From positions 1 through 44,434 of the forward strand of contig JAHJTI010000194.1 of NCBI GenBank assembly GCA_018829945.1: a stretch of DNA of 44,434 nt, written 5' to 3'. The notes under the pieces are model-generated. The model searched no databases and had not been told where the DNA came from. It was given only the letters and a program-made list of their open reading frames with translations. The position numbers were made by a program, and so were the translations under genes. Source of the DNA: Pseudomonadota bacterium (GTDB lineage: Bacteria; Desulfobacterota; Desulfobulbia; Desulfobulbales; Desulfurivibrionaceae). This document shows positions 8,320-40,850 of this stretch, in pieces (the stretch's first letter is position 1; each line of letters begins with the position of its first letter).

Positions 8320-10575
8320 ATGGAAGATTTACGAAAGCGGCTGCTCAAGTTAGAAGAACGCACCAGCTATCTGAGTCAGATCAAGGATGGCGTTGAGTGG
8401 GCGAATCTCTCCGGGTTGCGCGAAAAATATGTCGCCTTGCGTGACAAGTTTTATGAGTATACGGAAGATCAACTGTCCGAAGAAATCGCGGCGGTTGAAG
8501 AGTCCGTGTCCTTTCTGGAAGCCCGTTGCGAAGAGACCTTGAGCTCCATGGATCGGGTGCGCATTGTCCGCAATCCGCACAGGTTCTCCTTAAAAGACAT
8601 CCTTGAGAATGTCTATGAGGATTACACCGAACTTGGCGGAGCCGAGGAGGTCAGCATTGATCCTTCCATGGTTGCGGCCAGGGCAAGTATCATGCGCCGG
8701 GTGAAAAACAAGTCGGTCATGCAGCAGGTCATGGTCATCGGCCATGAGAAGGGCCATGGCGAGGAGTACCGCAACGGCGGCTGCTCCAAGCCCTGGGGCA
8801 ACGAAAAGGCCCTCCGTTACATGCGGGTGGCTGAGACCGAAGGCATTCCCATCCATTTCTATATCTTCACCCCCGGGTCTTTTCCGGTGGAGGATTATCC
8901 CGGCGCGGGCCAGCAGATTGCGAGAAATCTGTATGCCATGGCCAAACTGCGGGTGCCGATGATTTCCGTTACCTCGGAAGGCGGCTCCGGAGGAGCCGAG
9001 GCCGTTGGCATGGCCGATGTCCGGCTGATGTTTTCCCATGGGTACTACTCGGTTATTTCCCCGGAAGGTGCGGCAGCCATCGAGGGCAAAATCCGCGAAG
9101 GCGAGAAGATGCCCAAGGAGTTGGTGGAGGCATGCGCCGAGCGTTTGCACATCACGGCGGAGGAAAATCTCAAGCTCGGGACCATCGACCGGATTGTCTA
9201 CGAACCGCCTCTGGGCGCCAAACGGGATGATTTTGGATTTTTTAGGGAGCTGAAGTGCGAGATCATCCGAGCCACCGACGAGGTTGTGCTGAAAACCAAG
9301 AGTCTCAGGGCTTTCCGCGCCTATGAATTGAAGATGAAAAAGGCGGAGGAGCGGGTCTTTGAAGAACCGCACATCGAAATTTCCTGGGATCTTAACGAGG
9401 ACGAAGTCAAGCGTCTGCTCAGTTTACGCTCGAAAAAATACCGGGCCATGTCCTTTAAGGGATATTCCGAAGATAACTCGGCCTGCTCCGCTTTTTGCCG
9501 GAAGGCAAGAAAGAGTGTTGCCAAACTGTACTACAGCTTCCGTTATGACCTGCTGAAGAGCCAGCATAAACAGGTGAAAAAAGTTTTCCAGGATGTCTCC
9601 GGCGAGGGTTCCGTGCTGCTCAAGCAGGTTTCCTCCCCCTTTAGCGCGGCGTATGATTTTATCTCGCGAAAACCCGGCTCACGGCCTGGGAAACCACCGG
9701 TGGTCGCCAGCGGCAGCGGGGAAGACCCCATCGAGTTCGGGGATGTCTATACCAGCCCGTTGGCCACCGAGGATCGCACCGTGACCTGCCCCAATTCCGA
9801 GAAGCAGGGGTGCAAGGATCTTTGGGTTCCTGATCTGTATGGTGAATTCGGCGGGGTGTGCGAAAATTGCGGACACCATTTTCCTTTGGAATATCAGTGG
9901 TATCTCAAGCATCTTTTTGATCCTGATTCCATCCGGGAATTCAATGCTGGGGTCTGTTCCGGTAATCCGTTGGCCTATCCGGGCTTTGAAAAGAAGTTGC
10001 AGGCCGCCATTGCCAAAACCGGTCGTCGCAGCGGCATCATTACCTTTGATGCCAGAGTTATGGGTGTTGATCTGGTTGTCGCCATGCTGTACAGCGATTT
10101 CAGAAATGGCACCGTCGGTTCCGCCGAGGGCGAAAAATTTGTGCGGGCCTGTGAAGCTGCCAAGCTGAAACGGCGACCGCTTCTTGCCTATGTGCATACC
10201 ACCGGCGGCATCCGCATCCACGAGGGGACTCTGGGTGTGGCGCAGATGCCCAAGTGCACCATGGCGGTGCGTGAGTATATCGATTCCGGCGGCCTGTATA
10301 TTGTGGTGTACGACAATAATTCTTACGCCGGCCCGGTAGCGAGCTTTCTCGGTTGTTCGCCGTATCAGTTTGCCATTCGCTCCAGTCGAGTCGGTTTTGC
10401 AGGACCCCGGGTTATCCGCGACACCACAGGAGAGGATATCCCCCCCGATTATCACAACGCTCGCAAGGCGTTGCAGCGTGGACATATCCAAGGCATCTGG
10501 GATCGCCGGGAATTTCGGCGGAATCTCCATAAGTCCCTGCTGACCATGGGCGGTGGTAATCTGTATTACAGGTGA
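8320..10575 (+). CDS. Fused carboxyltransferase, AccA-like then AccD-like
   Basis: 751 aa; N-half VIGHEKG...PGSFPVEDYPGAGQQIARNLYAMAKLRVPMISVTSEGGSGGAEA...YYSVISPEGAAAI; C-half Cys pattern CPNSEKQGC...CENCGHHFP and crotonase-like carboxyltransferase core. Confidence 0.85.
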   Translation: MEDLRKRLLKLEERTSYLSQIKDGVEWANLSGLREKYVALRDKFYEYTEDQLSEEIAAVEESVSFLEARCEETLSSMDRVRIVRNPHRFSLKDILENVYEDYTELGGAEEVSIDPSMVAARASIMRRVKNKSVMQQVMVIGHEKGHGEEYRNGGCSKPWGNEKALRYMRVAETEGIPIHFYIFTPGSFPVEDYPGAGQQIARNLYAMAKLRVPMISVTSEGGSGGAEAVGMADVRLMFSHGYYSVISPEGAAAIEGKIREGEKMPKELVEACAERLHITAEENLKLGTIDRIVYEPPLGAKRDDFGFFRELKCEIIRATDEVVLKTKSLRAFRAYELKMKKAEERVFEEPHIEISWDLNEDEVKRLLSLRSKKYRAMSFKGYSEDNSACSAFCRKARKSVAKLYYSFRYDLLKSQHKQVKKVFQDVSGEGSVLLKQVSSPFSAAYDFISRKPGSRPGKPPVVASGSGEDPIEFGDVYTSPLATEDRTVTCPNSEKQGCKDLWVPDLYGEFGGVCENCGHHFPLEYQWYLKHLFDPDSIREFNAGVCSGNPLAYPGFEKKLQAAIAKTGRRSGIITFDARVMGVDLVVAMLYSDFRNGTVGSAEGEKFVRACEAAKLKRRPLLAYVHTTGGIRIHEGTLGVAQMPKCTMAVREYIDSGGLYIVVYDNNSYAGPVASFLGCSPYQFAIRSSRVGFAGPRVIRDTTGEDIPPDYHNARKALQRGHIQGIWDRREFRRNLHKSLLTMGGGNLYYR

Positions 10576-11374: not shown

Positions 11375-11469
11375 TTCAGGGCTTTCAAAAAAAATGGGGG
11401 CTTTTGGGTGAGCGATTATATGTGGATGTCACAGCTGACATCCCACTTTACCAGTCAGGGCTGTCGATA

Positions 11470-12396
11470 ATGAACGAGCTTCTTTCTTTTCAATCCGTTC
11501 GGCAACTCATCTCTGACGAGGAGATTCCCGCCCGTCTGCTCCACTATCCGGAGGAGGTTGTCCAAGCCGTATATCGGTATGGCGCTCCGGTGGGCAGCAT
11601 CATTCATCATTTCCCTCAGGCCGAAAGGCTTATGCCCTTTGCCCGTCAGCGGATCAACGAATATGAAGCCCGGGGGCAGTCCTGTCCCAGCGGCATGGTT
11701 TTTCTCGCCGATGAACTCACTGGTGGTCGCGGTCGGTTTCAGCGTTCCTGGCATGCTCCGTCCGGCGGTTTGTGGATGACTCTGGTCATGGCCAATACCC
11801 TGTTGCCGGAAAGCATGCGCCTTTATCCCCTTGCTGCCGGCATGGCCTGCTGTGAAGCAATTCGAAGTTACGGTATTGATGCGCATCTCAAGTGGGTCAA
11901 TGATGTGCATGCGGCAGGGAGAAAGATCTGCGGGGTGCTCTGTGAATCGTTTACCAGCGCAGAGTTTGGTGAGGAGTATGTGCTGATCGGAGTGGGCATC
12001 AATATCAACAACCTGGCTTTCCCGACCGAACTGGGCACGACAGCAATATCCATGAAGGAAATCCTCGGGTGCGACACAGAACTGGCCGATTTTGCCACAC
12101 GTCTGTTGGCCAAGTTTTCCTGGAGTTTCGGTCTGCTTTGCCATGATGAAGCATCACGTCTGGCTGCCGACGATGGTTCCGGTGCGGATCTCCCCGAAAG
12201 TCTCCTACTTGCCGCCTGGCGAGAAATGAGCGACACCGTTGGCCGCCAGGTATGGTTCGGCTTTGATGTCCAGCAGCAGCCCCAGTATCGCGCGGAAGTG
12301 CTGGGCCTTTCTTCGGACGGGGGAATCATTCTCCGCCACCTTGAAAGCGGGGCCGAGATTGTCGAACATTCCGGAGAATTGTTGTATATTGACTGA
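11470..12396 (+). CDS. Biotin--[acetyl-CoA-carboxylase] ligase
   Basis: ADELTGGRGRFQRSWHAPSGGLWMTLV, LKWVNDVHAAGRKICGVLCE and GVGININN are BPL catalytic motifs. Start chosen at MNELLS; the ORF track begins at 11404. Confidence 0.88.
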   Translation: MNELLSFQSVRQLISDEEIPARLLHYPEEVVQAVYRYGAPVGSIIHHFPQAERLMPFARQRINEYEARGQSCPSGMVFLADELTGGRGRFQRSWHAPSGGLWMTLVMANTLLPESMRLYPLAAGMACCEAIRSYGIDAHLKWVNDVHAAGRKICGVLCESFTSAEFGEEYVLIGVGININNLAFPTELGTTAISMKEILGCDTELADFATRLLAKFSWSFGLLCHDEASRLAADDGSGADLPESLLLAAWREMSDTVGRQVWFGFDVQQQPQYRAEVLGLSSDGGIILRHLESGAEIVEHSGELLYID

Positions 12397-13425: not shown

Positions 13426-15456
13426 ATGGACCAAGACATCAAGAGGTGGGGCATGTGGTGGAATGATTTGAAGATCGGGAAAAAAATGATGCTCGGTTCC
13501 GGCAGTATTCTTTTTCTGCTTGGAGTTGTTGGCGTTCTGGCTTTTTGGGGCCTGGGCAGTGTTGTGCGGGACGGGATCGAGGTGGCCAACGGAAATGCCT
13601 TGCGCGGGGAGTTGTTGCAACGGGAAGTTGATCATTTGAATTGGGCCAAGAAAGTCTCTGCCTATATATACGATGGCAGTATTACCGATTTAGATGTGGA
13701 ATTGGATCATACCAAGTGCGGATTTGGTAAATGGTATTATGGCGACGGACGCAAAGAGGCCGAGGTGATGTTGCCGCTTCTTCGTGAACCCTTGGCAGAA
13801 ATTGCCGAACCCCACCAGAAACTCCACGGATCAGCAATGAAAATCAAGGAGACATTTCGTAAAAAAGAGAACCAGGACGGGCGGCAACAGGCGGATCGTA
13901 TCTATAGCACCGAAACACAGTCAAACTTGACCAAGGTGCAGTCTCTGTTGAACAAATTGACCGGATTGGCCAAGGAGAACATTCTTTCCGAGAATCAGAT
14001 GATTCAAAACGCCAAGACAACCAGGATTGCCATCGTGATTATAGGACTTGTGGCTATCTTTCTTGGCGTAACGGTCTCCCTGTTTTCAGCAAAATCCATA
14101 ACCAGTCCCATTGATTCGGTGGTGGCGGTGAACAATCGGCTTGCGCTTGGAGATGTGGATGTAGCGATGGATATCAACCGGAAGGACGAAGTGGGATTGA
14201 TGCTCACATCCATGAATGTCATGGTTGAAAACCTTAAAGAGACGGCCGGGCTTGCGGAACAGATATCCCTTGGCGATCTGGATGTTCAGGTAAAAATTCT
14301 TTCCGATAAGGATGTTTTGGGGAGATCTCTGGACGCCATGGTCAAAAAGCTGCAGGAAACAGCCCGGTTGGCCGAAAAAATTGCCCTTGGCGACCTGGAT
14401 GTGCAGGTGAAAATTGTATCGGACAAGGATGTGCTGGGTAAATCACTGGCCAGCATGGTGGATAATCTCAAAAAGACCGCAGCACATGCCGAGCAAATCG
14501 CCGATGGCGACCTGCGGGTGGATGTGGCTCTCCTTTCCGATAGAGATAGTCTTGGCAAATCCTTGTCTGCCATGATTGCCAGACTGCGTCAGGTGATCGG
14601 CGATGTGCGGCTTGCCGCTGAGCAGGTAACGGCGGGCAGCCAGGAATTGAGCAGCAGTTCGGAGCAGGTTTCCCAGGGTGCCAGTGAGCAGGCTGCTTCG
14701 ACTGAGGAAATATCTTCGTCCATGGAGGAATTGGCCAGTACTGTGGCCCAGACCGCCGAGCACGCCAGACAGACGGCGGCTATTTCAACCAAAGCCGCCG
14801 CAGACGCACTTGCCGGGGGCAACGCGGTTGCGGAAACCGTGGCAGCCATGCAACTTATTGCGACAAAAATCGAACTTATTGAGGAAATCGCTCGCCAAAC
14901 GAATCTTCTCGCCTTGAATGCCGCCATTGAGGCGGCAAGGGCCGGGGAGCATGGCAAAGGCTTTGCCGTGGTGGCCGCAGAGGTAAGAAAACTGGCGGAG
15001 CGCAGCCAGTTCTCCGCTCAGGAGATCAAGGGGGTTGCTTCGGCCAGTGTAAAAACCGCAGCCAATGCCGGAAAACTCATTGAGGAGATTGTGCCGCAGA
15101 TTCAAAAAACCGCGGAACTGGTCCATGAGATTGACGCGGCCAGCAACGAGCAGGCTCGCGGCATTGACGAGAATGCCAGGGCTATTCAGCAGTTTGATCA
15201 GGTTATCCAGGCCAACAGTGCCGCTGCCGAGGAAATGGCCTCAACCAGCGAAGAATTGACTGCCCAGGCGTCGCAACTGCAGGAAACCATAGCGTTTTTC
15301 ATGGTGGAAACAGCAGGGAGTATTCGTCCTCAGGGACGACCTCTGTCTCTGCCTGTGTCCTCCTCCAAAACTTCGAAAAAAAAAGCATCGGGTGCGGATA
15401 AAGGTGTAAAGCTTGCCCTGCAGTCAACCATAGAAGATGACTTTGAACGTTATTAA
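13426..15456 (+). CDS. Methyl-accepting chemotaxis protein 1, CZB-like region between two TMs, four HAMP units
   Basis: 676 aa; MCP hairpin ([39 protein letters not shown]); HxxCxxGxWYY motif between TM1 and TM2; ends DFERY. Confidence 0.93.
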
Positions 15457-15480
15457 TGCCTGATGCATAGTATGTGCTGC

Positions 15481-15512
15481 AAAAAAACGCCCTTGATTCG
15501 AGGGCGTTTTTC
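15481..15512 (+). terminator. Intrinsic terminator after MCP1
   Basis: ACGCCCT-TGATTCG-AGGGCGT followed by TTTTT. Confidence 0.85.
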
Positions 15513-15638
15513 GTGATGCTTCAGGGCTTTAACGGATATTTATTCTTTGACGCGGTTTGTTTCTCATGCGTATAATTGTTCAATGTGGGTAGTTTTACCG
15601 GGATTGATCGAGGGAGCCGGACAAACAAGGAGCGGAAG

Positions 15639-17426
15639 ATGCAGAAAGACAGATTCAAAAATATGGGGATTGCGTCAAAGTTAAATCTGGCCATTGTGGC
15701 TGCCGTTTTGTTGCTTATGCTCGGTATGACCGTGGCGATCAATGCAGCAGTGCGTGGCGCTATGAGCGAACAGGGAGATTTTTATGTGAATACCCTGAAA
15801 CAACAGCAGAAAAACGAAGAAGCATTGTTGCGCCAGGATCTAGTTTTGAAGGGGAAGTCTTTTGCCGAAATGCTGGCCAGGGTTGGGCAGGATCTTCTTC
15901 TAAACTACGAGTATGCTTTTTTGGAGAAGATTGTCCAAAGCGCGGCCAATGACCCTGATGTCGCCTTTGTCGTGTTCAATGACAAGGACGGAAAGGGTGT
16001 TACCACATCAAGCGTCAAGCCGGAAAATTTTCCTGCGCAAAATATTGTGGAAAAGGAAATTCTGGTCGGGGACCAGAAAGTCGGTTCTGTGATCATTGGG
16101 TTGGATTTTGCTGCTGTTGAAAAGAATATCCAAAAAACCTTAGCAGACGGTAATGTAGTGATCGCCGCAGCCCAGCAGAGACAAAAAGAGGTTTTGCTGC
16201 GGATTGCCATGAGTATTGCCGGGTTTGCCGCTGTAGTAGTTTTGCTTATAGGCGGCATTGTTTATGTCACTATTCGTCATATGATTAAGCCGCTTGTTGA
16301 GGCCGTGGCCCAAGTACGGTTGGTTGCTCAAGGGGATCTGGACGTGGAAATCGTCAGTAAGAGCGGGGATGAGATCGGGCAGATGCTTGAGGCCATGCAC
16401 GGTATGGTCGGAAATCTCAGGGAGACAGCGGAAATGGCCAAAAAGGTTGCTGGCGGAGATCTTGATGTCAGTGTCCGGTTGCTTTCCGATCGCGACAGTT
16501 TCGGGATATCCCTTTCCGCTATGGTGGAGAAGATCAAAAGTATTATCCGCGATGTTCGTCAGGCGGCGGATCAGGTTGCCAGCGGAAGCCAACAATTGAG
16601 CAGCAGCTCTCAGGAGGTTTCCCAGGGAGCCAGTCAGCAGGCCGCGGTTATCGAACAGATTTCTAGCGCCATGGAGGAGCTTACCAGCACGGTGGCCCAG
16701 AGCGCCGACAGTGCCCGCCAGACCACCCACATCGCCACCAAAGCTGCGGCAGATGCTGAGGAAGGTGGCAGAGCCATGCAGGACACGGTGCTGGCCATGA
16801 AGCATATCGCCGAGAAAATCGAGGTCATTGAGGAAATTGCACGCCAGACCAACATGTTGGCCCTGAATGCGGCCATCGAAGCAGCCAGAGCCGGGGAGCA
16901 CGGTAAGGGGTTTGCCGTGGTTGCCTCCGAAGTGCGTAAGCTTGCCGAGCGGAGCAAGGTTTCGGCACAGGATATTCGTGAGGTGGCAATATCCAGCGTC
17001 GACACCGCTGCCAGTGCCGGAGCGCTGATTGAGGCGATGGTTCCACAAATAAAGAAAACCGCTGATCTTGTGCAGGAAATCGATGCGGCAAGCACGGAGC
17101 AGGCGCGGGGTATTGCTGAAAATGCCAAGGCTATCGAGCAGTTTGATCAAGTGGTTCAGTCCAACAGTTCCGTGGCCGAGCAGATGTCTGCGACCAGCGA
17201 GGAATTGAACGCCCAGGCCAGTCATCTTTTGGAGATCATGAATTTTTTCCGGACCGGAGCCGAAGAAAAAGACCGAGGCGGGGTAGCAATTGCCGATGGC
17301 GGTTCCGGGAAGGCTGCCGGTCGGCAACTCCCCCTGCGCAAGGATGACAGTGCGAAACGCGGCAAGGCGGATGGAATTCGCCTTGCCCTGGAGGATCGGA
17401 CAGATGGAGATTTTCAACGTTATTAA
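15639..17426 (+). CDS. Methyl-accepting chemotaxis protein 2, two HAMP units
   Basis: MCP signalling domain; start at MQKDRF preceded by AAGGAGCGGAAG; ends DFQRY. Confidence 0.92.
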
Positions 17427-17514
17427 TCACATCCCTGCGTACCGCAAAATATTAAGCATGATGTGGGCCATGAGAGCCTTGTAATGCGAATCAGCGTGAA
17501 AATGAGGAGGAAAC

Positions 17515-19389
17515 ATGAGACTGGTTGACTTGAAGATTTCAAAGAAGATCCTTGGTGGAATCGGCGTCATCAGTTGTATTTTTCTCCTGGCGATCGGCTA
17601 CCAGTTTTTTACTTCTCTCGTTCTTGCGGAAATGCAGGATGAAGGAGCCCGGCGGGCTGATGAGGCTTTGGAGGTCGGGCAGATCATGGAGAGAATGGTC
17701 GGCACCTATGCGGTGATGGCTGATGCCGTGATCAACAGAAATCTTGTCGAGAGTAAAAAGGATTTTGCCAAGGCCAAAGCCCAGGCGGAAAAGGATATTG
17801 TCAGGGTGAAAGAATTGGTGGATACGGATCAGGAAATTGTCTGGGCCGGAGAGATGGCCGAGCATTATGCCGACTATATCAACACCTTTGAACAAGAACA
17901 GTTGCCCTTACTGGAAAACCCTGCTTCCAATAACGTAGCAGCGATCCGGGAGGTGGATGGAAAGATCGACCAACTGCGGCAGCAAACCAGTGAATCACTC
18001 TCCAGGATAGTTTTGGCTTTGGGCGAGGAGATGACTGAGGCGGACAAGAAATTTGACGATGCCCGTGGCCGCGCCACTTTCATTTCCGGGGCGCTTTCAT
18101 TGGTGGGCATCGTACTTGCCGTGATCATCGCCCTGTTTACCAGCGGTAGTATCACTAAACCCATGGATGAGGCGGGTGTCGCTCTTGACAGGATATCCAC
18201 AGGCGATATTTCCGTAGATATTACAGTAGACCGGAAGGACGAAATCGGGGCCATGCTTGCAGCCATGCAGAGGGTTGCGGAGAATTTCAAGGATGTTTCG
18301 CGGATGGCTGAGCGTATTGCCTTGGGCGATTTGGATGTGCAGGCCCGAATTCTCTCGGAAAAAGACTTGTTGGGGAAGGCACTGGCCAGGATGGTGGAGA
18401 ACCTCAAGCATACGGCAGCCCAAGCGGAGCAGATTGCTGAAGGCGACCTGTGGGTGGAGGTGAATCTTCTGTCCGACAAAGACAGCCTTGGCAAGTCGCT
18501 TTCCGCCATGATAGCGAAATTGCGGCAGGTGATCGGCGACGTGCGGATTGCCGCCGATCAAGTGGCTTCCGGCAGCCAGGAGTTGAGTAGCAGCTCTCAG
18601 CAGGTTTCGCAGGGCGCCAGCGAGCAGGCCGCTTCGGTGGAGGAGATTTCCTCGTCGATGGAGGAACTGGCCAGCACTGTGGCCCAAACTGCTGACCATG
18701 CCCGACAGACAGCGGCGATTTCCACCAAGGCTGCCGCCGATGCTGTGAATGGGGGGAAAGCGGTCGAGGAAACTGTAACTGCCATGCAGCTTATCGCCAA
18801 GAAGATTGAACTTATTGAGGAAATAGCCCGACAGACCAATCTTTTGGCCTTGAATGCCGCCATTGAGGCAGCCCGGGCCGGCGAACACGGCAAGGGTTTT
18901 GCCGTGGTGGCCACGGAGGTGCGCAAGCTGGCTGAACGCAGTCAGGTTTCCGCCCAGGAAATCAAAGGTGTTGCAGGCGCCAGTGTGGAAACCGCCTCCA
19001 ATGCCGGCAGGCTGATTAACGAAATTGTTCCGCAGATACAGAAAACAGCAGAGTTGGTGCATGAAATCGATGCTGCCTCCAATGAGCAGGCCCGAGGTAT
19101 TGATGAAAACGCCCGAGCCATACAGCAGTTTGATCAGGTGATTCAGTCCAATAGCGCTGCTGCTGAGGAGATGGCTTCCACGAGCGAGGAGTTGACCGCT
19201 CAAGCGGGACAGATGCAGGAAACCATCGCTTTTTTCAAGACGGATGATGCCGGAGAAAGAGTTCTGCCGCGTCTGCCGGGGCGTTCCCTGTCGGGAGCAA
19301 AAGGAAAAAAAGATCCTGCTTTTTCTTCGGCTATGGGGGTTAAGCTTGCTCTCACGTCGGGGATGGAACAGGATTTCGAGCGATATTGA
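17515..19389 (+). CDS. Methyl-accepting chemotaxis protein 3, four-helix-bundle-like sensor, three HAMP units
   Basis: 624 aa; GAGGAGGAAAC SD; HAMP-like repeats; MCP hairpin; ends DFERY. Confidence 0.93.
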
Positions 19390-19420
19390 GGGGGCTGAAA
19401 TTAAGGTTGATGGAGGAAGA

Positions 19421-21088
19421 ATGAAGAAAAACATTAGAAATAAGATGTTGTTGGCTTTTGGCGGGGTCTGTGTGGCCCTTGTGCTTCAATTTTCCCTTAG
19501 TTTTTATCTTCAGGGCAAAGTGGTTCGTGCGGTGACGTATGCCCGCGATGTAGGCTATGGGGGGAACGAATTGGCCATGTCCCTTAAATATGATCTCGCT
19601 GAAGTGGCGGGTTGGGTTTCAGATATTTCTGCGACCAGAGGGCTCAACGGCCTGGATGACGGTCTTAAAAAAGCGGAACATTCGGCGAATCTTTTTCGTA
19701 AGCATATCCAGGAATTGATAGCGCTGCATCCTGATGATAAAAAGCGGCTGGAAGAGGTGGAACTGGCCTTTAATAAATATTATGAAAAAAACGTATGGAT
19801 GGCAGGGCAATATATCAAAGGCGGTCCTGAACTTGGCAATAAATCCATGGCAGAAGTGGATGCCTATGCCGAAGAAATCCATAAACTTATCAGTGAGATT
19901 GAGGAGGAAATGGAGGTTGAGGCTGCAAGTGCAATTCAGCGCGCCATGGATGCCATTCAACTGAATAATGTTCTCGGAGGGGTTGTTTCTCTTTCTGTCA
20001 TTCTCTTTACCCTTATTTTAGCCTGGGTATTTTCCGGAAAGATCGCTTCTGCCCTCGGGAAGATGGTCGGCGTTGCCAGGCGGATAGCAGACGGTGATCT
20101 GGCTCACACCAAGATGGAGGCGAATAAGGAGGATGAGATCGGCCAGCTTGCCGAGGCCTTGAATGCGATGGTAATACGACTCCGGGAAATCATTCAGGAT
20201 GTGCGTATGGCTGCGGATCAGGTTGCCGCTGGGAGCCATGAATTGAGCAGCAGTTCCCAGGAGGTTTCCCAAGGCGCCAGTGAGCAGGCCGCCTCGGTGG
20301 AAGAGATTTCCAGTGCCATGGAAGAGCTTGCCAGCACTGTGGCCCAGAGCGCCGACAACGCCCGGCAGACCACGGCCATTGCCAGCAAGGCTTCGAAAGA
20401 CGCGGTGGAAGGCGGGAAGGCCATGACGGAGACCGTGGACGCCATGCAGCACATCGCCGAAAAGATAGAAGTGATAGAAGAGATTGCGCGGCAGACCAAT
20501 TTATTGGCGCTCAATGCCGCTATCGAAGCGGCCCGGGCTGGAGAGCACGGCAAGGGGTTTGCCGTGGTTGCCTCCGAGGTGAGAAAGCTTGCCGAACGCA
20601 GTCAGGTTTCGGCACAGGAGATCAAAGGTGTCGCCAGTTCCAGTGTGGCCACGGCGACCAATGCCGGAAAACTCGTCAACGAGATTGTTCCCCAGATCCA
20701 GAAAACCGCCGAGTTGGTGCAGGAAATCGATGCTGCCAGCAACGAGCAGGCCAGAGGTCTTGAAGAAAATGCCAAGGCCATCGAACAGTTTGATCAAGTC
20801 ATTCAGGCCAACAGCGCCGCTGCAGAAGAAATGGCTTCCACCAGTGAAGAACTTACGGCCCAGGCCGCCCGGCTTCAAGAAACCATCGCTTTTTTCAAGA
20901 TCGATGATGCCGGAAGCAAATGGCAATCGACAAGCGGTTCTGATACAGCATACGGCAAAACTGGTGGAAGTTCTTTGCCTCTGCCTCCTGGAAAAGATTC
21001 CGGGGGGCAGTCAATGAAGACTGATTCGGTCAGAAAAAGCGGGGCATCGATTTCTCTGAATGATTTGAGTGGGTTCGAGCGGTATTAA
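19421..21088 (+). CDS. Methyl-accepting chemotaxis protein 4, single HAMP
   Basis: Start at MKKNIRNKM preceded by TGGAGGAAGA; helical periplasmic sensor; MCP hairpin; ends GFERY. Confidence 0.93.
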
Positions 21089-21108: not shown

Positions 21109-23226
21109 ATGGCTGATACGGAATATGCGGAGATTTTTCGCGAGGAAGCGGGAGAACTGCTTGAAGAGTTGGAAACTTCTCTACTGGAGTTGGAAAAAGA
21201 TCCTGCCGACCTCAAAATCGTGAGCCGTGTTTTCAGGGCGATGCACACGATCAAGGGTTCCGGCGCTATGTTCGGTTTTGATGACATAGCCGGGTTTACC
21301 CACCATGTGGAAACGGTTTTGGACAAGGTCCGGGACGGTACTGTGCCAGTAAGTAAGGAGTTGATCGATTTGACTTTGGCTTCAAGAGATCATATCCGTG
21401 CTTTATTGGACGCGGCCACCGGCGGGGGCGAGGCAGATTCAGCCCAAGGGGAACGGATTATCGTCTCGTTACAGACGTTGGTCGGCGGCGGGGGGGCAGG
21501 AAAAGAACAAGCTCCGCCGACCTCTGAGGCCGCAACGGTGCCTGTTGAGGAACATGATCCCACTGTCGGTAAGATGACCCATTATAGGATTCATATTCGC
21601 CCCACCCCGGAATTTTTTGTCGGCGGGAATACTGTTGAGCTCTTGCTTGGCGAGCTTAAAAAAATAGGAGAGTGCACGGTATTTCTTCACGAGGAGGGAA
21701 AATCGGAAGATTCCGGCTACAGAGGAAGGTGGGAAATATTGCTCACCACGGACAAGGGGATCAATGGGGTAGAAGATGTGCTGGTTTTTGCCGAATCCAG
21801 CTGTGAGGTGAAGGTGAAGATCCTTGCCACGGAAGGCGAGGATGATTTTGAAGAACACAAGAAACTCGGCGAAATTCTTGTGGAAAAAGGCGAGATCTCT
21901 GTTGACGCCCTTGAAAAGATCCTTGAGCGGCAGAAACCGCTGGGGGAATTGCTGGTCGGCGAAAATCTTGTGTCGCGAACCAGTGTCGATGCTGCTCTTG
22001 CAGAACAAAAACTGGTACGGGATGCCAGGGAAAAGGCGACGGTTACCAAGGGCGCGGAAAGTATCCGAGTCGCTTCGGAAAAACTGGACCAGCTCATCAA
22101 TCTGGTGGGCGAACTGGTCGTCACCCAAGCCCGGTTGACTCAGATCGTCAGCCTTAACAAGGATTCCGATTTTGTCGAACCGGTGGAAGAGGTGGAACGG
22201 CTTACCGGCGAACTCAGGGATTGCGTGCTTAATATCCGGATGTTGCCCATCGGCACCACCTTTGCCAAATTTAAACGGCTGGTTCGTGATCTTTCCGCCG
22301 AGTTGGGCAAGGAAGTAGTCATGGTTACCGAAGGCGCCGAGACCGAGCTGGATAAAAACGTGATTGATCAGTTGAGTGATCCCATGGTTCACCTGATACG
22401 GAACAGTATCGATCATGGAATCGAGTCGCCGGAAGAGCGGCAGCAAGCGGGAAAACCTCGGAAAGGTACTATTTCCCTTGCGGCTCATCATTCCGGGGCC
22501 AATGTCGTTATTACTGTTACCGATGACGGCAAGGGTCTTGATGCGGAGAGAATTCGGCAAAAAGCTTTGGAAAAAGGGGTGTTCCGAGCAGATGCGGAGC
22601 TTTCCGAGCAGGATATCTGGAATACCATTTTCATGCCTGGTCTTTCCACGGCCAAGACCGTTACCAGCGTTTCCGGCCGTGGGGTAGGCATGGACGTGGT
22701 GAAAAATACAGTGGATGCCCTTAAGGGATCGGTTTCTGTAACCAACAGCGTCAAGGGACGTGGCACTACGGTTACCATCACCTTGCCTCTGACCCTGGCA
22801 ATTATTGACGGACTGCTTGTGAAAGTGGGGGATACCCATTTTGTTTTGCCTCTCTCCCAGGTGGAGGAGTGTGTGGAGTTGACCAAGGAGGATATCGCCC
22901 GGTTCCATCAGCGGCGGATGCTGCCGGTTAGAGAACAGCTCGTTCCCTATGTTCGGCTGCGTGATTTTTTTGATATTTCTGGAGAAAGGCCACCGCTTGA
23001 GCAGATGGTGATAAGCAGAATCAACGGAGAACGTTTCGGTCTGGTGCTTGACGATGTGGTGGGTGAGCACCAGACGGTTTTGAAATCACTGGGCTGGATT
23101 TATCGGAACGCCACGGGGCTTTCCGGTTCGACAATTTTGGGCAACGGGCATGTTGCCCTGATTCTTGATGTGGCCAACGTGATGAAATGTGCCCGTCAGG
23201 AAGAGCGAGAGACTCTTGCCAACTGA
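21109..23226 (+). CDS. cheA: Chemotaxis histidine kinase CheA
   Basis: 705 aa; Hpt motif FRAMHTIKGSGAMFGF, LVGELVVTQARL, DPMVHLIRNSIDHGIE, DDGKGLD, GRGVGMDVVKN, C-terminal CheW-like domain. Confidence 0.95.
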   Translation: MADTEYAEIFREEAGELLEELETSLLELEKDPADLKIVSRVFRAMHTIKGSGAMFGFDDIAGFTHHVETVLDKVRDGTVPVSKELIDLTLASRDHIRALLDAATGGGEADSAQGERIIVSLQTLVGGGGAGKEQAPPTSEAATVPVEEHDPTVGKMTHYRIHIRPTPEFFVGGNTVELLLGELKKIGECTVFLHEEGKSEDSGYRGRWEILLTTDKGINGVEDVLVFAESSCEVKVKILATEGEDDFEEHKKLGEILVEKGEISVDALEKILERQKPLGELLVGENLVSRTSVDAALAEQKLVRDAREKATVTKGAESIRVASEKLDQLINLVGELVVTQARLTQIVSLNKDSDFVEPVEEVERLTGELRDCVLNIRMLPIGTTFAKFKRLVRDLSAELGKEVVMVTEGAETELDKNVIDQLSDPMVHLIRNSIDHGIESPEERQQAGKPRKGTISLAAHHSGANVVITVTDDGKGLDAERIRQKALEKGVFRADAELSEQDIWNTIFMPGLSTAKTVTSVSGRGVGMDVVKNTVDALKGSVSVTNSVKGRGTTVTITLPLTLAIIDGLLVKVGDTHFVLPLSQVEECVELTKEDIARFHQRRMLPVREQLVPYVRLRDFFDISGERPPLEQMVISRINGERFGLVLDDVVGEHQTVLKSLGWIYRNATGLSGSTILGNGHVALILDVANVMKCARQEERETLAN

Positions 23227-23306
23227 AAAAAAATGATAGTACCCTGCCGAATTTCAATGTTGGGAGTGAGCAGTGTCTGGTAGAAAACGCACACGGGAGA
23301 GAAATC

Positions 23307-23861
23307 ATGAGCGGAAAAAATGAAATGGTTCAGTCGAAGGCCACGCAATATCTCACCTTCATGCTACGGGAGGAGGGATTTGCTGTAGAAATTTCCAAGG
23401 TCAGGGAGGTGCTTGATGTTACGACCATGACCAGAATCCCTCGAATGCCGGACTACCTCAGCGGCGTTATCAACCTGCGCGGCACTGTCGTGCCGGTTAT
23501 GGATCTTGGCCAGAAGCTGGGCATGGGAAGTATCGAGCACACCAAGAACACTTGCATCATGATAGTGGAACTTGAGGTGGATGGTAATCTGGTGGAGATG
23601 GGAGTACTGACCGATTCTGTACAAATGGTCCTTGATCTGAACCCGGAGGACATTGAGTCTGTTCCTAAAATGGGGACCAATTTGAACACCGAATTTATTA
23701 AGGGTATGGGCCGCCAGGCAGAGGAGAAATTTCTGATTATCCTCGATATCGATAAGGTCCTGGCCAGCGAGGGCGAAGCAGCCTTGCGGGAAATAGACAA
23801 CGCGGGATCGATACAGTTGGATGACTCCAGGCCGGAAGCATCCGCCAACGCGGAAGCGTAG
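23307..23861 (+). CDS. cheW: Chemotaxis coupling protein CheW
   Basis: YLTFMLREEGFAVEISKVREVLDVTTMTRIPRMPDYLSGVINLRGTVVPVMDL; start MSGKNEM preceded by GGGAGAG. Confidence 0.94.
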   Translation: MSGKNEMVQSKATQYLTFMLREEGFAVEISKVREVLDVTTMTRIPRMPDYLSGVINLRGTVVPVMDLGQKLGMGSIEHTKNTCIMIVELEVDGNLVEMGVLTDSVQMVLDLNPEDIESVPKMGTNLNTEFIKGMGRQAEEKFLIILDIDKVLASEGEAALREIDNAGSIQLDDSRPEASANAEA

Positions 23862-23890
23862 CAGTCACAGGTCGGGAATCCGGGGGGCGC

Positions 23891-24775
23891 ATGACTTTTT
23901 TTGGAGATCAGAGGGCTGCAGGAGATTGGTCCGTTCATTCTCCTACTTTGTCCGATCGCGATTTTAACCGATTCAGCGCTTTCATTTATGAAACCTGTGG
24001 TATCAAACTGCCTCCCATCAAGAAGACCATGCTTTCCGCTCGCTTGCAGAAACGGTTGCGGCAACTGCGTCTGGAATCATTTTCCGCCTACCTTGATTAT
24101 GTCTTGAGTCCCGATGGGCAGGCCAAGGAGCTGTGCCACATGATTGACGTGGTCAGCACCAACAAGACGGATTTCTTCCGTGAGGCAAAGCATTTTGATG
24201 TGATGACCAATCTTGTTCTCCCCGATTTTGTGCAACGGATGACCCACTCGGCTCACAAGACGCTCCGGGTGTGGAGCGCGGGCTGTTCCAGCGGTGAAGA
24301 ACCGTATACTTTGGCTATGGTTCTTGATGAGTTTTTTTCCCGGTACCCAGGGCTGGACTATACCATTCTCGCAACGGATATCTGCACCGAGGTGCTTGCC
24401 AAGGCGGAAGAAGCGATCTATACCGATGAGGTGGTGGCGCCTGTTTCTCCGGGGCTGCGGAATAAATATCTGATGAAGGGAAAGGGTACATACAAGGGTT
24501 TTCATCGGGTTGTTCCTGAACTTCGGCGAAAGGTGAAGTTCGAGCGGCTCAATTTCATGGACAGGGATTTTCGTATTGAAAAAAAGATGGATATAATCTT
24601 TTGTCGGAATGTCATTATATATTTTGACAAGAAAACCCAGTGCGCTCTTTTTGAAAAATTTTATCGGCAATTTTCTGCCCATGGCTACTTGTTTACCGGA
24701 CATTCGGAAACATTGGAAGGAATAGGAGATCGCATGGATCGGGTTGCGGCGGCGGTGTATCGATGCCGCAAATGA
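23891..24775 (+). CDS. cheR: Chemotaxis protein methyltransferase CheR
   Basis: 294 aa; VWSAGCSSGEEPYTLAM, LATDICTEVL, IIFCRNVIIYFDKKTQ, GYLFTGHSETL. Confidence 0.95.
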   Translation: MTFFGDQRAAGDWSVHSPTLSDRDFNRFSAFIYETCGIKLPPIKKTMLSARLQKRLRQLRLESFSAYLDYVLSPDGQAKELCHMIDVVSTNKTDFFREAKHFDVMTNLVLPDFVQRMTHSAHKTLRVWSAGCSSGEEPYTLAMVLDEFFSRYPGLDYTILATDICTEVLAKAEEAIYTDEVVAPVSPGLRNKYLMKGKGTYKGFHRVVPELRRKVKFERLNFMDRDFRIEKKMDIIFCRNVIIYFDKKTQCALFEKFYRQFSAHGYLFTGHSETLEGIGDRMDRVAAAVYRCRK

Positions 24776-25284
24776 GAGATATCCTGAATACGAATCTCCC
24801 CGTAGTGAACCTTCATCCGGGCGAGTTGTTTGTCGCCCAGGAGCCAACCTTGATCTCCACCATTCTCGGCTCCTGTGTTTCGGTTTGCTTGTTTTGTCCC
24901 AAACAGAAAACCGGGGCCATGTGCCATGGGGTGATGCCGGTTCGTGCTGATCTTACCATGGAAGACAGTTTTCGTTTCGTGGAGACATCGGTGCGGTATA
25001 TGGTCGATATCCTGACCCGCGGCAATATGCTTTGCCCCAGCACCGGACTCGTGGCCAAGATCTTCGGTGGGGCGGATGTTCTCGATGTTCATTTCGGCCC
25101 GGCAAATGATTCCCGGAGCATCGGTTCGATGAACATCACGGCCGCCCGGGAGGCTCTGGCGCGGTATGATGTTGCCGTGGCAGTGGAAGAAGTGGGCGGT
25201 ATTCATGGCTGCAAACTGTTTTTCTATTCGCACACCGGAGATGTCTTGTTGAAGCGTATTCCTCGTGCCTCTGTTCCAGAGTGA
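24763..25284 (+). CDS. cheD: Chemoreceptor glutamine deamidase CheD
   Basis: 173 aa; TILGSCVSVCLF (Cys), CHGVMP (His), AKIFGGADVL, NITAAREAL. Confidence 0.92.
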   Translation: MPQMRDILNTNLPVVNLHPGELFVAQEPTLISTILGSCVSVCLFCPKQKTGAMCHGVMPVRADLTMEDSFRFVETSVRYMVDILTRGNMLCPSTGLVAKIFGGADVLDVHFGPANDSRSIGSMNITAAREALARYDVAVAVEEVGGIHGCKLFFYSHTGDVLLKRIPRASVPE

Positions 25285-26358
<1,074 letters not shown>

Positions 26359-26541: not shown

Positions 26542-28128
26542 ATGGATCTCTTAAAGGATTTTGCTCAAAAAGATATGATCGAACAGATCGTCTGCCTGGA
26601 TGAGATAAAGGAATCCAGGCTGGTGGAAGCCATTCCTGCGCTTTTGGATCTTTATGCCAATCCGCTTGGTGATCAGGCGGTCGAAGAGATGATTTATCAT
26701 ACTCTGTTTGATTTGCTTGTCGGGCGTGAGCAGGATATTATCGCCGGTCTCGGGCATGCTTCGGAAGCAGTCCGTCTCATGTGTATTCGTCGCGCTGCCG
26801 ATGGAGGTTCTCCCGCTCTCAAGGACGCGCTGGTTACATTGCTTGACTCTGCTTCTCAAAACGAAATTGTTTCCGAAGTGATTCGGGCTCTTGGCAGTTA
26901 TAAGGATACCGGTCTCACGAAGATTCTGCTCCCCTATCTCAAGCACGACGATTATTCCGTTGTAGCCTGGACCATGCGCACCCTTGTCGGAGTTCATGAC
27001 CTCCAGGTTCGCGATGCCTTGATGACCCTGATTTCAGAAAGTCGGGAGGTGCATAATGTCGATGCCGGGTGCGATTTGCGAACCGCTCTGGCCGTGGAAA
27101 ACATTATCCATTTTCCCGATGATACGACAATCGATTTTCTTATTGGTTTTATCCATCATCCGAATCCCTCGTTTCGGCGAGTTGTCATCTCCACCCTTGC
27201 CGATATGGGCGAGGAAATATTGTCACCCCTGGATAAATGTCTTGATAGTGGCGATAAGGACGAGAAAATCATGGCTGCCAACGTCCTTGGCATGACCGGG
27301 AAAAAGCGGGGGGCCGACATTCTCGTCGCCCAATTGGAAAAAGCTGTGGACGCCAATTTGAAATTCGCCATCTATGAGGCGCTGGGGCGGATCAGCTCAA
27401 TGCGCAGCGTGATCGGCTTGACAGACGGACTGGCCGAGGAAGACGATCTCGTGCTCATTGCTGTCTTGACCGCTCTTGATCATCAATGTAACCCCGGAGT
27501 AGTTAAAATCTTAAACGAGATTATTGCCAGAGGTGATGTCCAGAGTAATCGGGTGGTCTCGGCCATTATCACCTCTCACGCCCGGCAGGTTTTCGCTGCC
27601 CTGTATAAAGATGGTGCGCAGCGCAGCGCATTGTTGTCGGCAGTACAGAAATCCGGGGATCACGAGGCTATTGGCGCTTTCCGGGCACAACTTGCCCAGA
27701 TCGGAGGAGAACAAGCCGCCAAGGATATTCAGCAGTTGAGCCTTGGTGAGAGCGGGGACAAGGAAAAACGCATTCTTGCCGCAGATGACTCCAAGGCCAT
27801 GCTATTTTTCTATAAGGGCATTGCCGCGGATCTCGGCATGGAGATGGTCACGGTTGAAGACGGGCAAAAGGCTTTTGACTATCTCCAGATAGACAGTGAG
27901 TTTGATTTAGTCATCACCGATATGAATATGCCGAATATGGACGGCATCGAACTGACCCGAGAGATCAGAAAAAAAGGTGAATGGGCCAAGATTCCCGTGC
28001 TGATGGCAACCACCGAGTCGGAGAAAACCCAGTCGGAACTGGCCAGGCAGGCAGGGGTGACGGATTTTATTACCAAGCCCTTTTCCAAGGATGACTTTAA
28101 AGCGAAGATCGGGGAGATGTTTGCCTGA
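26542..28128 (+). CDS. HEAT-repeat protein with C-terminal CheY-like receiver domain
   Basis: 528 aa; HEAT-like helical repeats, then RILAADDSKAM...LVITDMNMPNMDG...MATTES...FITKPFSKDDF. Confidence 0.88.
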   Translation: MDLLKDFAQKDMIEQIVCLDEIKESRLVEAIPALLDLYANPLGDQAVEEMIYHTLFDLLVGREQDIIAGLGHASEAVRLMCIRRAADGGSPALKDALVTLLDSASQNEIVSEVIRALGSYKDTGLTKILLPYLKHDDYSVVAWTMRTLVGVHDLQVRDALMTLISESREVHNVDAGCDLRTALAVENIIHFPDDTTIDFLIGFIHHPNPSFRRVVISTLADMGEEILSPLDKCLDSGDKDEKIMAANVLGMTGKKRGADILVAQLEKAVDANLKFAIYEALGRISSMRSVIGLTDGLAEEDDLVLIAVLTALDHQCNPGVVKILNEIIARGDVQSNRVVSAIITSHARQVFAALYKDGAQRSALLSAVQKSGDHEAIGAFRAQLAQIGGEQAAKDIQQLSLGESGDKEKRILAADDSKAMLFFYKGIAADLGMEMVTVEDGQKAFDYLQIDSEFDLVITDMNMPNMDGIELTREIRKKGEWAKIPVLMATTESEKTQSELARQAGVTDFITKPFSKDDFKAKIGEMFA

Positions 28129-40145: not shown

Positions 40146-40850
40146 TCAGTTGGCGTTTGGCGGGGAATTTTCGATGGAGCAAATGGTAAGGTAGCGTTCC
40201 AGATTTTCCAGATCGACACCTTTCAGTGTGAACTGAATGCCGAATTCCCTGGTTTTCTGGTCAAGCTCGATAACCCTGCGAACAAGGGCTTCCGGTGCGG
40301 TAGCTTTTTCCTCGAAATCGCCGAATCGTAACCGGAGGGTCAAGCTGAGCGGGCTGAGCTTGTCTCCTTTCTGGATGTGTTCGGAAAATTTCCCTACCAG
40401 CCTTGCTCCTTCGATGGAGATATTTTTTATTATGCCATGGTTGAGATACTGGCTAGCCTTGCGAGTGAATGTCGCAACGGAGCGTGGGCTTATCGCATAT
40501 CGGGGATATCTTCTTCTCTGGATTGTGATAATTGACCCTGGGAAAAGTACTCCCAGTTCCCCGTTGGTTTCAAGCACGGGGGTGGTGTGGAAGCCTCGCA
40601 TGGGCTGCTTGTTGTGCTGGTAGAGGAACAGGCAAGGCTCTTTGGGAGCCTGGAAAGGGGTGTCTTTGGAAAAAAGAAGAAGTGGTTCCGCTGCCTTGGC
40701 GAAAATCTCGGATGGCGTGAGCTTCTGCGGGTTCAGCCCCTTTTGGAAAAGGGTCACAGGGGTCCGCTGGCCGACAATTCGTATAATTTCTTCTCCAACG
40801 ACCTTCGGGTCATGGGACCAAAGTTCATGCATGAACAGCCTCTCCGGCAA
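40146..40850 (-). CDS. PilZ-domain (YcgR-like) protein, putative c-di-GMP effector
   Basis: RRRYPRY (RxxxR) and NISIEGARL (D/NxSxxG) motifs with a YcgR-like N-terminal half. Confidence 0.8.
   Translation of the reverse strand: MPERLFMHELWSHDPKVVGEEIIRIVGQRTPVTLFQKGLNPQKLTPSEIFAKAAEPLLLFSKDTPFQAPKEPCLFLYQHNKQPMRGFHTTPVLETNGELGVLFPGSIITIQRRRYPRYAISPRSVATFTRKASQYLNHGIIKNISIEGARLVGKFSEHIQKGDKLSPLSLTLRLRFGDFEEKATAPEALVRRVIELDQKTREFGIQFTLKGVDLENLERYLTICSIENSPPNAN

Follow-up and report, generated by a model that had tools for sequence, protein, structure and literature searches.

Can a chemotaxis histidine kinase sense c-di-GMP directly, through a module located within its own sequence? The question arises from a cheA gene in the 44,434-nucleotide stretch analyzed here, contig JAHJTI010000194.1 of a member of the Desulfurivibrionaceae (hereafter the window). 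A first-pass annotation of this DNA described two consecutive 24-residue MshEN-like motifs in the protein and left two options, a module that binds a nucleotide and a structural remnant. If a c-di-GMP sensor were present inside CheA, the decision between sessile and motile life would act directly on the kinase. The links between c-di-GMP and chemotaxis known to us involve adaptors, receptors or the motor. c-di-GMP also reaches a chemotaxis protein in Pseudomonas, where MapZ acts on CheR1, and in Azorhizobium with Cbp1 (PMC6454048), but the former uses a PilZ domain and targets a methyltransferase and the latter is a PilZ chemoreceptor, so that neither involves the kinase.

The same pair of domains found in the window CheA was mentioned by Wang et al. 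(2016; PMC5013675), who named CheA, in a single sentence that refers to their Supplementary Table 4, among other domains associated with MshEN. Their main text neither names nor assays an MshEN-CheA protein, and a search of the open literature for an experimental study of an MshEN-bearing CheA returned that sentence as the only relevant text. The combination is thus already known, although uncharacterized, and what is new here is its widespread occurrence and the selection acting on the insert.

The CheA protein and its insert

The gene is complete and codes for a protein of 705 amino acids with the order P1(Hpt)-P2-MshEN_N-P3-P4-P5. A Pfam search matched all four families expected of a CheA. 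The P2 region had no Pfam match in this search, and the AF2 model predicts for it a beta-alpha-beta-beta-alpha-beta pattern over residues 157–241. The fold search with the full-length model found known CheA structures with 42–45% identity over P3-P5, which supports the identity of these domains and has no bearing on the insert. The P1-P2-P3-P4-P5 order is shared with the canonical CheA of E. coli and Thermotoga maritima; we know of no c-di-GMP-type module in the P2-P3 linker of those proteins. The features of the gene are as follows.

21109..23226 (+), cheA, 705 amino acids; Pfam Hpt, H-kinase_dim, HATPase_c and CheW
21565..21837 (+), P2 (CheY/CheB-binding) ferredoxin-like domain, residues 153–243; AF2 secondary structure
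21862..21933 (+), MshEN motif 1, residues 252–275; translation and NF053729, with helices 253–259 and 265–272 in the AF2 model
21934..21936 (+), spacer of one residue, K276; comparison of CheA inserts
21937..22008 (+), MshEN motif 2, residues 277–300; translation and NF053729, with helix 278–284 and the start of helix 290–318 in the AF2 model
21976..22062 (+), continuous helix 290–318, extending out of the MshEN module in the direction of the P3 helix (323–350); AF2 model only
22057..22236 (+), P3 dimerization domain; PF02895

Relationship to the MshEN_N half of secretion and pilus ATPases

Translation of 21862–22008 (+) gives KLGEILVEKGEISVDALEKILERQ-K-PLGELLVGENLVSRTSVDAALAEQ (CheA residues 252–300), exactly the peptide described in the first-pass annotation, with every deviation listed there (K, P, E, N, V and the one-residue spacer). 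Its location between a P2-like and a dimerization region was also correct, P2 being predicted on the N-terminal side and P3 following. The relationship to MshEN was shown by profile search to be one of homology with the c-di-GMP-binding half, MshEN_N. The NCBIfam model NF053729, an MshE-related c-di-GMP motif of 53 positions with a cut-off of 38 bits, matched residues 252–300 with an E value of 3.4e-10 and 39.6 bits (46.4 bits for the segment alone). The best match among PDB sequences by phmmer was Thermus PilF (E 5.4e-10), and a profile made from CheA inserts alone picked up the two motifs in a pilus-type ATPase encoded by this genome (E 3.7e-8, computed at a database size of Z=5000).

The HMM check proposed in the annotation was divided, as the NCBIfam model matched above its cut-off and the Pfam MshEN model, PF05157, found nothing in the window CheA. 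In the pilus-type ATPase just mentioned (L003, contig C273) the PF05157 match, at 1501–1758, begins directly after motif 2. This model therefore misses CheA because it covers the region behind the motif pair (MshEN_C), which has no counterpart there, and Pfam-based surveys would overlook proteins with only MshEN_N such as these CheAs. A common architecture can in this way easily escape annotation. The silence of PF05157, along with the frequency of helical linkers in CheA, could be read as an amphipathic linker that resembles the motif by chance. Given that the Pfam model starts after the motif pair, that the NF053729 match is strong and that the insert has been conserved at the same position across CheAs from several phyla, we take chance likeness to be refuted already and assign it hardly any weight. 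Matches of NHase_alpha, DUF4388 and FumaraseC_C to the insert segment were weak and below cut-off, and were treated as chance.

Like the MshEN_N of Vibrio cholerae MshE (PDB 5htl) and of the PilB, PilF and GspE ATPases, the CheA insert has two 24-residue motifs, both of which keep L2, G3, L21 and Q24, and four short predicted helices. It differs from them in having no MshEN_C, in its position 1 residues (K and P in place of R), in the replacement of the motif 2 turn Gly by N and in being hosted by a histidine kinase rather than by a secretion or pilus ATPase. Taking the contact residues R1, L2, G3, L17, L21 and Q24 over both motifs, 9 of 12 are identical in the window CheA; the changes of R to K and L to V are conservative, that of R to P in motif 2 is not, and G3 and Q24 are kept twice. 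The helix-turn Gly is present in motif 1 (G261), with N286 at the turn of motif 2. The spacer has one residue instead of five (the range among CheA homologues is 1–20), which lowers but does not remove the claim of membership, the five-residue spacer being a feature of V. cholerae MshE and no proven requirement for binding.

The full-length AF2 model, made from an input of 38 sequences, predicts the four insert helices listed above with block-mean pLDDT of about 75–85, which agrees with the pair of helix-turn-helix units in MshEN_N. The helix 290–318 could be a coupling element between the module and P3, in a model whose relative domain placement is unreliable because its pTM is 0.50. Modeled as a stand-alone segment the insert gave a poor prediction (pLDDT 58), and the fold search of that model against the PDB returned nothing significant, the top non-significant match being the PilF GSPIIA domain. 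The identity of the fold thus rests on the sequence and the helix pattern.

Occurrence and history among CheA proteins

With a profile of the insert plus P3, at least 57 of 146 genomes of the order were found to carry a CheA with the insert, counting the near-full-coverage matches listed, and the CheA dimerization domain is present in 126 of these 146. Sampling over the phylum, 61 of 148 genomes matched at E 1e-13, almost all matches spanning into P3. Relatives bearing the insert were also found in Geobacteraceae, Nitrospirota, Deferribacterota, Spirochaetota, Riflebacteria, SAR324 and many beta- and gamma-proteobacteria. The genome of the window itself codes for a second MshEN CheA (L065, contig C209), which reads RLGEILIEQQLVSEAQVSTALSQQ-K-KIGELLIAQGVIQENDLKKALAIQ, belongs to a very distant clade and is cut by the contig end, and for a third CheA (L066, contig C45) without the insert.

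In a tree of 90 P3-P5 sequences the MshEN-bearing CheAs appeared in several deep clades: the large clade of the window protein, where 50 of 53 have the insert, a second made up of proteins of 760–870 amino acids, and a distant third that contains L065. The presence of MshEN changed at least nine times along the tree and was strongly clustered, a count that is approximate since the sampling was biased to insert-bearing CheAs and some of the proteins scored as lacking it are truncated or partial. This distribution indicates that the module is old in CheA and has been repeatedly gained or lost.

Conservation and selection in the insert

The survey of homologues suggested in the annotation revealed the insert at the identical site in 64 other CheA proteins from several phyla, and the deviations that had been flagged are common among them. 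In the resulting set of 65 inserts, with the window CheA among them and an effective number of about 49, both motifs always have G3, although this constancy is partly by construction because the regular expression that locates the motifs requires it, and Q24 is found in 90% (motif 1) and 100% (motif 2). An independent full-length alignment of 38 CheAs has G254, G279 and Q300 invariant and Q275 at least 90% conserved. Among the 65, L21 reaches 94% in motif 1 and 86% in motif 2. Position 1 of motif 1 is R or K in 86% (K alone in 42%) and that of motif 2 is P in 53%; motif 1 position 11 is E or D in 36%, motif 2 position 17 is V in 65%, and the turn of motif 2 (position 10) is Gly in only 57%. 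A spacer of 1–2 residues is the rule in CheAs of the Desulfobulbales and Geobacter types, and one of 5–20 in those of beta/gamma-proteobacteria and spirochaetes. Two of the inserts (L026 and L027) were misregistered by the regular expression, and the pattern is unchanged. Judged from these frequencies, K, P, E, N, V and the short spacer are ordinary for versions embedded in CheA and no signs of decay, and the residues retained are the ligand-specific positions.

Among ten close relatives pN/pS was lowest in P1 and P3-P5 (0.11–0.16), followed by the insert (0.24), P2 (0.35) and the linkers (about 0.6); as pS was 0.45–0.73 and near saturation, these ratios are valid for comparison between regions only. 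Within the insert the 12 contact positions were 0.889 identical, against 0.73–0.74 for the core and other positions. With a pN/pS below that of P2 and contact positions that vary least, purifying selection appears focused on ligand contacts, which argues against the remnant option.

Probable binding of c-di-GMP and its possible consequences

G3 and Q24, so strongly kept in the CheA inserts, are ligand contacts in the crystal structure of MshE, in which G3 and the next residue hydrogen-bond the Hoogsteen edge of guanine and Q24 hydrogen-bonds the ribose and phosphate of c-di-GMP, the G3 backbone and Q24 being the polar contacts to the ligand (PMC5013675). Changes of Arg9 or Gln32 shift the affinity of MshE no more than about fivefold, and in the G11L and G40I variants the stabilization of the protein by c-di-GMP is lost (PMC5013675). 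MshEN_C is not indispensable for binding, because the isolated MshEN_N (residues 1–62) of V. cholerae MshE binds c-di-GMP with a KD of 0.35 uM (PMC5013675). The ligand is likely to be available, as the genome has 27 GGDEF and 6 EAL matches. We consider it probable that residues 252–300 form a compact MshEN_N, without MshEN_C, which gives CheA a direct c-di-GMP input in the P2-P3 linker.

Homology alone is no proof of binding, since XpsE, a homologue of MshEN, has lost it (PMC5013675). The insert might likewise have kept a true MshEN_N fold but given up nucleotide binding in this protein, its role now being to space P2 and P3 rigidly or to offer a docking surface between them. The P1, N10 and V17 of motif 2, the poor conservation of its turn Gly and the short spacer would fit such a loss, and both N at motif 2 position 10 and E at motif 1 position 11 fall outside the relaxed motif of Wang et al. 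(PMC5013675). However, G3 and Q24 rank with the best-conserved residues of the insert across the 65 divergent proteins, and close relatives differ less at the contact positions than in the hydrophobic core, neither of which would be expected of a pure spacer; we judge the non-binding fold to be unlikely. Less probable still, the pocket could accommodate something other than c-di-GMP, be it 3',3'-cGAMP, some other nucleotide or a protein (MCP, CheW, CheD or a polar organizer). A change of specificity could come from the substitutions at position 1 of motif 2, and one section of the 2016 paper carries the heading "MshEN can also bind cGAMP" (PMC5013675). Against this, c-di-GMP enzymes are abundant in the genome.

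If the insert is a c-di-GMP receptor, one molecule of c-di-GMP would be bound across both motifs and would stiffen or re-orient the P2-P3 linker. Such a change would alter the reach of P1 and P2 to the P4 kinase, or the way in which P3 is held, so that high cellular c-di-GMP would lower or raise the phosphorylation of receiver proteins. What the analysis establishes is the homology, the position, the conserved contact residues, the predicted helices and the presence of c-di-GMP enzymes in the genome; binding, the switching of the linker and the direction of the effect are inference. More tentatively, and with the chances somewhat against it, a large and ancient subset of bacterial CheAs, including most of the window clade, might be direct c-di-GMP receptors in which MshEN_N gates the kinase via the continuous helix to the dimerization domain. 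The reading of the protein as an MshEN-CheA yields a clear prediction that can be tested at defined residues.

Neighboring genes

The chemotaxis cluster is composed of four MCPs, CheA, CheW, CheR, CheD, CheB and a protein with HEAT repeats and a receiver, and is kept in Desulfobulbales-type relatives. Its genes beside cheA are the following.

13426..21088 (+), four chemoreceptor (MCP) genes, upstream of cheA
23187..26358 (+), cheW, cheR, cheD and cheB
26542..28128 (+), protein with HEAT repeats and a C-terminal receiver, at the end of the cluster and conserved there in relatives

No stand-alone CheY was found in this cluster, unlike the loci of Geobacter and beta types, where a short receiver lies just upstream of cheA. 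The HEAT-receiver protein, which has 81–86% identity in close relatives, may be the output regulator of the pathway, and FliG is encoded elsewhere in the genome. The downstream PilZ protein that the annotation had pointed out is encoded by a real gene (40146–40850, minus strand; PF07238, E 2.5e-6) and is possibly another c-di-GMP receptor.

As longest ORFs, the fourth MCP (19244–21088) and CheW (23187–23861) both start in overlap with the gene before them; translation probably begins at an internal Met codon in each. Upstream of the cluster, at 8320–10575, a single protein contains both halves of the acetyl-CoA carboxylase carboxyltransferase, ACCA-like and then Carboxyl_trans, and is followed by a biotin/lipoate ligase gene at 11404–12396.
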